This document shows positions 33,099 through 35,901 of a DNA stretch of 64,000 nucleotides, in pieces (within the stretch, counting starts at the first letter, position 1; each line of letters begins with the position of its first letter). This DNA is from Olsenella massiliensis (GTDB lineage: Bacteria; Actinomycetota; Coriobacteriia; Coriobacteriales; Atopobiaceae): NCBI RefSeq assembly GCF_001457795.1, contig NZ_LN898211.1, positions 310,001 through 374,000 of the forward strand. The letters run 5' to 3'. A model generated the notes under the pieces. The model saw nothing but the letters and a program-made list of their open reading frames with translations, was not told where the DNA came from and did no database searches. A program made the translations under genes and the position numbers.

Positions 33099-33265
33099 CG
33101 TGGAGGCGACGTTGCGGGCGCTGCGGGCGGAGTGAGGTGCGACGCCTGGCGCGGACCTCGGCGCCGATGCGGGAAGCGGCGCGGAGACCTTCGGGCCCTT
33201 CGTCGAGGCGGACGGCGCCGCCGCGGCCGCGGCCGGCCTTGAGGCCCTCTCCCTCTAACACCTCT

Positions 33266-33284
33266 AGCTGCGTATAAGGGACAG
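33266..33284. other. Tn5/Nextera mosaic-end-like junction (assembly artefact)
   Basis: AGCTGCGTATAAGGGACAG matches the 19-base mosaic end used in tagmentation libraries at 16 positions. Homology to chorismate synthase starts directly after it (TGLPAGIGSPPF) and the frame is closed by a stop inside it. The sortase frame breaks on the other side. Confidence 0.75.
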
Positions 33285-33751
33285 GCACGGGCCTGCCCGC
33301 AGGCATCGGCTCCCCCCCGTTCGACGGCATGGAGAACCTCCTTGCCCGCGCCCTCTTTGGCATCCCCGCCGTCAAGGGCGTCGAGTTTGGGCGTGGCTTT
33401 GCGGCGAGCGAGCTGCGCGGGAGCCAGAACAACGACCCCTACCGCATGCGCGAGGGCCGGCCTCGGCCCGTCACGAACAACGCCGGCGGCATCCTGGGCG
33501 GCATCACCACCGGCGCGCCGGTCGTGGTCAGGGTGGGCGTCAAGCCCACCCCGAGCATCGCCGCTCCCCAGCGCACGGTGGACCTCGCCACGCTAGAGGA
33601 CGCCGAGCTCGCGGTGCGCGGTCGCCATGACCCCTGCGTCGCCGTGAGGGCCGTCCCCGTCGTCGAGGCGCTCTGCGCCCTCGTCGTCCTGGACGCCTGG
33701 CTCTCGTACCCGCCCGAGCCGGCACCCGCCGCGACCGCCCGCCACGACTGA
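33285..33751 (+). CDS. aroC: Chorismate synthase, C-terminal fragment on a misplaced segment
   Basis: About 155 residues of chorismate synthase: TGLPAGIGSPPFDG, then IPAVKGVEFGRGF, GSQNNDPYR, RPVTNNAGGILGG, TTGAPV and KPTPSIAAPQ, a region holding the FMN- and EPSP-binding loops. The first half or more is missing. Upstream of 33285 the frame meets a stop within a mosaic-end-like sequence, so the truncation is a junction and not natural decay. An ATG at 33329 is an internal methionine. It reads into pheA in operon order, so the genome presumably has a complete aroC elsewhere. Confidence 0.88.
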
Positions 33752-33767
33752 CTGGGAGACTGACGCC

Positions 33768-34913
33768 ATGGAGCAACTCGAGGACGTCCGCGACAAGATC
33801 GACGAGATCGACCATGCCCTGCTCGACCTCATGGTGAGGCGCACGGAGCTCGCGGCGGACGTCGCCGCCTACAAGGCGGCGCACCACCTGACCGTTCTTG
33901 ACCGCGCCCGCGAGCGCCGCGTGGTCGCCGACGCCCGTCGGCGGGTGCCCGAGGACCTGAAAAGCCATGCCGCCGCCCTGATGGAGCTCCTCATGGAGGC
34001 CTCGCGCACGCGGCAGGGCGACATACTGGGCGCGACGTCGCCCGCCATCGAGGCCATCGACGAGGCGCTGGCCGTGGCGCCCGCGCTCTTTCCCACCGAC
34101 GCGCTCGTGGTGACCCAGGGGGTCGAGGGCGCCTACCAGCAGATCGCGACCGAGCGCATCTTCAGCCACGCCCAGATCGGCTACGTCGGGTCCTTTGAGG
34201 GCGTGTTCGAGGCCGTCGAGGCCGGGACCTGCGACTTTGGCATCCTGCCCCTGGAGAACAGCACGGCCGGCACCGTCAACCAGGTCTATGACCTCATGAT
34301 GCGCCATGACGTCCACATCGTGCGGAGCTGTCGCGTCAAGGTGAACCACAATCTCCTCGCCAAGCCTGGAACCAGGCTCCAGGACGTCACGGACGTCTAT
34401 AGCCACGAGCAGGCCATCCGTCAGTGCGAGGCGTTTCTCGCCACGCTGCCGGGCGTGCGCGTGCACGTGACGCGCAACACCGCCCTGGCCTCAAGGTTCG
34501 TGGCCCAGAGCGACGAGCCGGGCGTCTGCGCGCTGGCCTCGCGCGAGTGCGCGGAGCTCTACGGCCTCAGGGCGCTCGCCAAAAACGTCCAGGACAACGA
34601 CAACAACTACACGCGCTTCGCCTGCATCGCAAAGGGTCTCACCATCTATCCCGGCGCCGACAGAAGCTCGCTCATGCTCGTGGTCCGTCACCGCCCGGGC
34701 GCCCTCTACCGGGTTTTGGGCATCTTCTTCGCCCTGGACATCAACATCACCAAGCTCGAGAGCCGTCCGATCCCCGACCGCGACTTCGAGTTCATGTTCT
34801 ACTTTGACGTCGCGTGCCCCGCCGCCTCCCCCGCGTTCAGGCGGCTGGTCAAGGAGCTCGGCGACGTCTGCGAGGAGTTTCGGCACCTCGGAAGCTACGC
34901 GGAGGTCTCCTAG
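33768..34913 (+). CDS. pheA: Chorismate mutase / prephenate dehydratase
   Basis: A 381-residue bifunctional enzyme of phenylalanine synthesis. Residues 1-90 are an AroQ-type chorismate mutase (RDKIDEIDHALLDLMVRR, VAAYKA). Residues about 110-290 are prephenate dehydratase (GVEGAYQQIA, GILPLENSTAGTV, and NNYTRFACI with the catalytic Thr and Arg). The end is an ACT domain with LESRPIP, the usual phenylalanine feedback site. It is complete and follows the aroC fragment by 16 bases and precedes aroE by one base. It lies on the segment bounded by adapter sequence, so its true genomic position is probably elsewhere. Confidence 0.94.
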   Translation: MEQLEDVRDKIDEIDHALLDLMVRRTELAADVAAYKAAHHLTVLDRARERRVVADARRRVPEDLKSHAAALMELLMEASRTRQGDILGATSPAIEAIDEALAVAPALFPTDALVVTQGVEGAYQQIATERIFSHAQIGYVGSFEGVFEAVEAGTCDFGILPLENSTAGTVNQVYDLMMRHDVHIVRSCRVKVNHNLLAKPGTRLQDVTDVYSHEQAIRQCEAFLATLPGVRVHVTRNTALASRFVAQSDEPGVCALASRECAELYGLRALAKNVQDNDNNYTRFACIAKGLTIYPGADRSSLMLVVRHRPGALYRVLGIFFALDINITKLESRPIPDRDFEFMFYFDVACPAASPAFRRLVKELGDVCEEFRHLGSYAEVS

Positions 34914-34914
34914 C

Positions 34915-35127
34915 ATGGCCGGCACGGGCGAGCGGCGCTTTGGGCTTTTGGGGCGCACGCTCGCGCACAGCTGGTCGCCCGCCATTCACGCGCGCCTGGG
35001 CTCCGCTCCCTACGGCCTCTTCGAGCGCGAGCCCCAGGATGTCGCTGACTTCGTGCGCAACGGCGGCTGGCGCGGCCTCAACGTCACGATACCGTACAAG
35101 CGCCGCGCCTTTGAGCTCGCGGACGAG
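34915..35127 (+). CDS. aroE: Shikimate dehydrogenase, N-terminal fragment cut by adapter
   Basis: About 71 residues of the substrate-binding domain: FGLLGRTLAHSWSPAIHARLG (shikimate-binding SWSP) and GLNVTIPYKRRAFELADE (with the catalytic lysine of NVTIPYK). After LADE the reading frame continues directly into Illumina adapter sequence, so the rest of the gene is lost from this place. The gene starts one base after the pheA stop. Confidence 0.88.
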
Positions 35128-35202
35128 ACATCGGAAGAGCACACGTCTGAACTCCAGTCACGCCAATATCTCGTATGCCGTCTTCTGCTTGAAAAAAAAA
35201 AA
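35128..35202 (+). other. Illumina TruSeq index adapter with poly-A tail (contamination)
   Basis: From about 35128 the sequence is the standard indexed adapter: TCGGAAGAGCACACGTCTGA and onward, the six-base index GCCAAT (35162-35167, known as index 6), then the ATCTCGTATGCC...CTGCTTG end (to 35191) and eleven A (35192-35202). This is the read-through pattern of a short library insert and is not bacterial. Its translations give the well-known database artefact peptides such as EEHTSELQSR and RRRHTRYWRDWSSDV. Confidence 0.98.
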
Positions 35203-35393
35203 CACCCCCCTCTGCACGCTCTTCTCCCGCTCGGACCTGGGGCGCCCCGCTCCCCTGCTCGTCGCGTGTGGCCGGGAGGTTGGAGGTTGGAAGAGCACAC
35301 GCCTGAATGCCAGCAACGCCCATCTCACGTCTACAGCCTCCTTCTCCCGAAATTAACCGACACCAGCGAGACGTGTCTAGACGTGTATAAGAG
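35203..35393 (+). other. Low-quality sequence, second degenerate adapter copy and mosaic-end-like junction
   Basis: After unexplained sequence to about 35287, a second, error-rich copy of the indexed adapter runs from about 35288 (GGAAGAGCACACGCCTGAAT) to about 35355. It is followed by a P5-like stretch and then AGACGTGTATAAGAG (35379-35393), which matches 14 of the first 15 bases of the tagmentation mosaic end. Nothing here supports a gene. Confidence 0.85.
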
Positions 35394-35427
35394 CGTGGCG
35401 CAGGTGCTTGCTCGTGCCCTGGCCCAT
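35394..35427 (-). CDS. Probable 5' end of the class B sortase gene
   Basis: Three bases after the purE stop an ATG opens a frame (MGQGTSKHLRH) with GGAGGG seven bases upstream. It is cut after 11 codons by the adapter junction. The sortase body at 32340-33254 lacks a start and ends at the other junction, so this is very likely its first exon-like piece. Some bases between the two pieces may be lost or wrong, because an in-frame TAG occurs at 33255-33257. Confidence 0.6.
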
Positions 35428-35430
35428 CCG

Positions 35431-35901
35431 CTAGCCCTCCGCCATCTGACGCTTGAAGTCAGCCATGACCTGGGCGTATCTCTCGTCGGAGGTGGCGAGG
35501 ACCTGCGTCGCGTAGATGGCGGCGTTCTTGGCGCCGTTGATGGCGACGCAGGCGACGGGCACACCCGAGGGCATCTGGACCATGGAGAGCAGGGAGTCCA
35601 TGCCGCCGAGGTCGCTCGTCTTCATGGGAACGCCCACGACGGGCAGCGGGGTGAAGGCCGCGACGACGCCGCCCAGGTGGGCCGCCTTGCCGGCGGCCGC
35701 GATGATGACCTTGAGACCGCGATCGCGGGCGGACGAGGCCCAGGCGTGAACCTTGTCCGGCGTGCGGTGGGCCGAGGCAATGACGAGCTCATAGGGCACG
35801 CCGAACGCCTCGAGCTGCTTGGTGCAAGCCTCCATGGTCGGCAGGTCCGACTTTGATCCCATGATGATTCCCACGAGGGGCTTCTGCTCGCTGTCTGCCA
35901 T
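35431..35901 (-). CDS. purE: N5-carboxyaminoimidazole ribonucleotide mutase
   Basis: A 156-residue class I PurE that converts N5-CAIR to CAIR. The start is the ATG at 35901, which has GGAGG six bases upstream, giving MADSEQKPLVGIIMGSKSDLPTM. SKSD (about 14-17), SAHRTP (about 41-46, catalytic His) and AGKAAHLGG are present. It is the first gene of a set purE-sortase-purM-purN once the adapter-bounded insert is removed. A purK partner is not seen in the window. Confidence 0.95.
   Translation of the reverse strand: MADSEQKPLVGIIMGSKSDLPTMEACTKQLEAFGVPYELVIASAHRTPDKVHAWASSARDRGLKVIIAAAGKAAHLGGVVAAFTPLPVVGVPMKTSDLGGMDSLLSMVQMPSGVPVACVAINGAKNAAIYATQVLATSDERYAQVMADFKRQMAEG

Follow-up and report, generated by a model that had tools for sequence, protein, structure and literature searches.

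An adapter-bordered aroC-pheA-aroE segment beside purE as a very probable assembly artefact in Olsenella massiliensis

Introduction

Contamination of microbial genome databases by Illumina TruSeq adapters has been documented by Moeller et al. (2024, PMC11536531), in whose cases the adapters cluster at contig ends. A second kind of library oligonucleotide is the palindromic junction adapter of Nextera mate-pair libraries, in which fragments are circularised via this adapter, sheared and completed as ordinary paired-end libraries; the adapter therefore lies mid-fragment in properly made mate-pairs, and its trimming is essential (Skewer paper, PMC4074385). Both sequences are in print: the complete TruSeq Adapter Index 6 oligonucleotide in PMC10000876, and all 38 bases of the junction palindrome, as the circularisation adapter, in PMC7357533.

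The window analysed here is a stretch of 64,000 nucleotides from Olsenella massiliensis, C13:310001-374000, in which C13 (NZ_LN898211.1) is a 903 kb contig of a 13-contig, 1.82 Mb assembly. As in the cases of Moeller et al., a TruSeq adapter was left in a published-type microbial assembly and lowers its accuracy, but it lies deep in the contig and is accompanied by an apparent false join and by a second kind of adapter. The latter is the same palindromic junction adapter as that discussed in the Skewer paper, although here it survived into the finished contigs, where it stands at no fewer than 17 sites, in many of them with base errors. Given the identity of the adapters and their recurrence across the assembly, the division of aroC and aroE into parts that complement each other on two contigs, and the unbroken gene order of relatives, we regard it as almost certain that the interval 33247-35397 is an assembly artefact, in which aroC(3')-pheA-aroE(5') would have been misplaced through library sequence.

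Results

Composition of the adapter block

As shown in Table 1, the right-hand part of the interval (35130-35397) is largely made up of library oligonucleotides. The initial annotation had read here, from about 35128, a TruSeq indexed adapter with index GCCAAT, a poly-A run, a second, error-rich adapter copy and a "mosaic-end-like" stretch, and all four were recovered: the first copy is exact and carries the barcode listed for Index 6; the second copy reaches an alignment score of 29, whereas none of 1000 shuffles scores above 15; and the mosaic-end-like stretch corresponds to half of the Nextera junction adapter. For the C-rich filler between the two TruSeq copies, an origin shared with C12:388604-388679 was considered and rejected; the apparent match of 75% is due to the adapter part, and the stretch upstream of it has a score of 12, which 244 of 1000 shuffles attain.

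Open reading frames run across this block. The minus-strand frame at 35010-35300 encodes a product containing SSRRRHTRYWRDWSSDVCSSD, and the plus-strand frame at 34804-35856 encodes SEEHTSELQSR, so the peptides named in the initial annotation are indeed encoded. Their description as known database artefacts, which we presume to hold, gained no confirmation from a literature search for adapter-encoded peptides, in which no paper printed or mentioned them. A Pfam search assigned no family to any of four adapter-crossing frames.

Table 1. Features of the interval and further junction-adapter copies (window positions, or contig positions where a contig is named)
Feature	Position	Strand	Basis
Degraded palindromic Nextera mate-pair junction adapter, presumed left border of the artefact	33247-33284	.	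29/38 bases
Putatively misplaced genomic segment: aroC 3' part, complete pheA, aroE 5' part	33285-35129	+	Pfam and protein searches; complementary aroC and aroE parts on C12
pheA, complete	33768-34913	+	Within the segment
aroE, 5' part	34915-35129	+	Within the segment
TruSeq Adapter Index 6, exact	35130-35191	+	62/62 identity; oligonucleotide printed in PMC10000876
Poly-A (11 A), read-through beyond the oligonucleotide end	35192-35202	+	Sequence
C-rich filler, probably low-quality read tail	35203-35288	.	No convincing match in the assembly
Second TruSeq copy, error-rich	35289-35345	+	43/57 matched, 14 mismatches
Half Nextera mate-pair junction adapter, presumed right border of the artefact	35376-35393	+	17/18 bases of TCTAGATGTGTATAAGAG
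Other junction copies on C13	223715, 277065, 277187, 388180, 403962, 594835		30-38/38
Other junction copies on C12	154672, 175744, 193144, 195601, 226603, 305933, 361382		30-38/38
Other junction copies on C11	184952		30-38/38
Other junction copies on C10	97615, 127456		30-38/38

Left border and enclosed segment

The junction adapter at the left border was overlooked in the initial annotation; its number of matching bases compares with at most 25 for 300 scrambled palindromes anywhere in the window. Adapter sequence thus stands on both sides of the enclosed segment, in which the aroC part covers positions 210-327 of the 327 of the Pfam chorismate synthase profile and the aroE part positions 1-69 of the 83 of Shikimate_dh_N. 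With proteins of the relative G002 as queries, the window holds AroC residues 222-383 and AroE residues 7-76. The extent first given for the artefact, 35128-35393, is right for its right-hand part and too short on the left, where the interval would begin at 33247 and take in about 1.8 kb of misplaced genomic DNA; the accompanying warning that annotation across the stretch is unreliable is upheld and extended to 33247-35397.

Donor site on C12 and receiving site beside purE

A search of the assembly with AroC and AroE-AroK from G002 placed AroC residues 1-141 at C12:146748-147173 and, on the same strand, AroE-AroK residues 161-426 at C12:145850-146647. These two parts are separated by 100 bases without pheA, and the middle of the locus is absent on C12. 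The segment 33285-35129 very probably belongs on C12 between 146648 and 146747, near 146.7 kb. AroC residues ~142-221 and AroE residues ~77-160 were not found anywhere in the assembly, so that about 160 codons of the two genes appear to be lost from it. Within the scar itself (~C12:146648-146747) no adapter was recognisable, and no alignment rose above those of shuffles.

In 15/15 relatives examined, no more than 1 kb separates a sortase gene from purE, and neither pheA nor aroE stands between them; most of these relatives have the order purM-sortase-purE-pdxK, which is the order flanking the insert here; the receiving site is uninterrupted in the 15. Of 80 relatives, 71 have aroC, pheA and aroE as direct neighbours, and purE is absent from all 71 loci. 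In closed relatives, aroE and purE are far apart (1.32 and 2.92 Mb in G002, 2.28 and 0.77 Mb in G004, 0.86 and 1.89 Mb in G020, respectively). In the window, the sortase frame is open towards the left adapter and has no obvious start, and its 5' end was probably lost from the assembly as well.

A genuine rearrangement could have placed pheA beside purE, with adapter contaminating one end by chance; the segment is indeed genuine DNA of the organism, and purE, its right-hand neighbour, is intact. This is highly unlikely, since adapter is present at both borders, these coincide with the points at which aroC and aroE break off, the other parts of the two genes lie on C12, and the arrangement occurs in no relative examined. 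To the biological form of such an event, a true relocation of aroC'-pheA-aroE' beside purE that splits aroC and aroE and leaves the strain dependent on supplied aromatic compounds, we give even less credence.

Adapter copies elsewhere in the assembly

The TruSeq oligonucleotide occurs exactly three times in the assembly without mismatch, and at least 17 junction-adapter sites share 29 or more bases, one of them all 38, with the 38-base palindrome formed by CTGTCTCTTATACACATCT and its reverse complement. The TruSeq copy around C13:880482-880554 splits a gene for an RlmL-type methyltransferase, and that around C12:388589-388650 splits a gene for an ABC-2 type membrane protein; in both, matching gene parts lie on either side. 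Beside the latter copy is a short MRFLHLADLHMG stretch that resembles the start of an SbcD-type nuclease and is perhaps another stray piece. Each further junction copy within a contig is likely to mark a gap or a false join. The junction copies that were compared show 67 substitutions, chiefly T>G, A>C, T>C and A>G, a pattern that looks like low-quality base calling and not like decay by mutation.

The perfect junction adapter at C12:193144 has flanks that are collinear in G004, so that the idea of a long-range misjoin behind all junction sites was rejected: the adapter is the mark of a defect in this assembly, although long-range displacement does not occur at each copy. It might therefore be supposed that the adapter at 35128-35393 likewise only fills a local gap between true neighbours, with nothing displaced, as happens at C12:193144 and some other sites. 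That reading is barely credible here, because relatives have sortase adjoining purE and aroC-pheA-aroE elsewhere, the rest of aroE on C12 contradicts it, and junction adapter is also present at the left border, 33247. Least credible of all is that the palindromes are natural Tn5/IS50-type transposon ends and that the segment moved by transposition. The junction adapter does resemble such ends, being built from the Tn5 mosaic end, but the mosaic end is an engineered hybrid, and the reading is further opposed by the back-to-back copies, as in the circularisation adapter, by the co-occurrence with a TruSeq oligonucleotide and by the scattered substitutions of all sorts.

Adapters in other genomes and records

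The TruSeq adapter, at up to 2 mismatches, is absent from 59 relatives, and among 298 further genomes of the order just 2 contain the junction core. These searches also brought out G075 and G104, of the same order, with 12 and 27 junction-palindrome matches per strand, respectively; they are representatives of other species with the same defect. That relatives from a mate-pair-using laboratory share the artefact was considered and found unsupported, the only case being the L008 genome with one site and 3 mismatches. Further afield, the 62-base oligonucleotide was found, whole or in part, in 17 phage records and in 1 of 5426 E. coli genomes, often a few bases from the record end, and plasmid records gave no match. 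All aligned external copies (n = 4) differ at the index, that of Caulobacter phage Ccr29 carrying the Index 9 barcode. The oligonucleotide thus occurs here with a listed index and in unrelated records with other indices; together with its identity and the other copies within the assembly, this bears out the original reading of the sequence as library chemistry and not genome.

Several records outside the order show similar inclusions. In E. coli SK0832 (NZ_AP046542.1, 2224680-2224743), whose genome bears the label "complete", an adapter of TruSeq type, its index 8 bases long, lies between cheY and cheB. Similarly, the complete records of phages Ccr29, TS13 and EI contain TruSeq adapters, and in Klebsiella phage EI the hypothetical protein gene CPTPhageEI1_134 overlaps the adapter.

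Discussion

The three exact TruSeq copies and the 17 or more junction sites point to a Nextera mate-pair library trimmed only in part, and the presence of two adapter kinds in one assembly fits the design of such libraries. The misplacement at 33247-35397 probably arose from this library type in the following way. Fragments would have been circularised via the junction adapter and sheared, and TruSeq adapters (Index 6) ligated; incomplete trimming of the reads would then have left adapter sequence at contig ends. These common ends may have created artificial overlaps, which were taken like repeats by the assembler or exploited by a gap-filler, and at the gap between sortase and purE one or the other program would have put in the aroC(3')-pheA-aroE(5') contig that belongs on C12.

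Scores for completeness and contamination, 97% and 0.26% for this assembly, miss the error. The defects of the assembly comprise about 20 adapter sites with one demonstrated displacement, and the split genes are aroC, aroE and those for the RlmL-type methyltransferase and the ABC-2 type membrane protein. The stretch is a data error and not biology, and it reveals no new biology; its value is that of an error report for quality control, in that gene order and annotation over 33247-35397 are not to be trusted. An aromatic auxotrophy or an operon rearrangement of O. massiliensis inferred from this assembly would be misleading.
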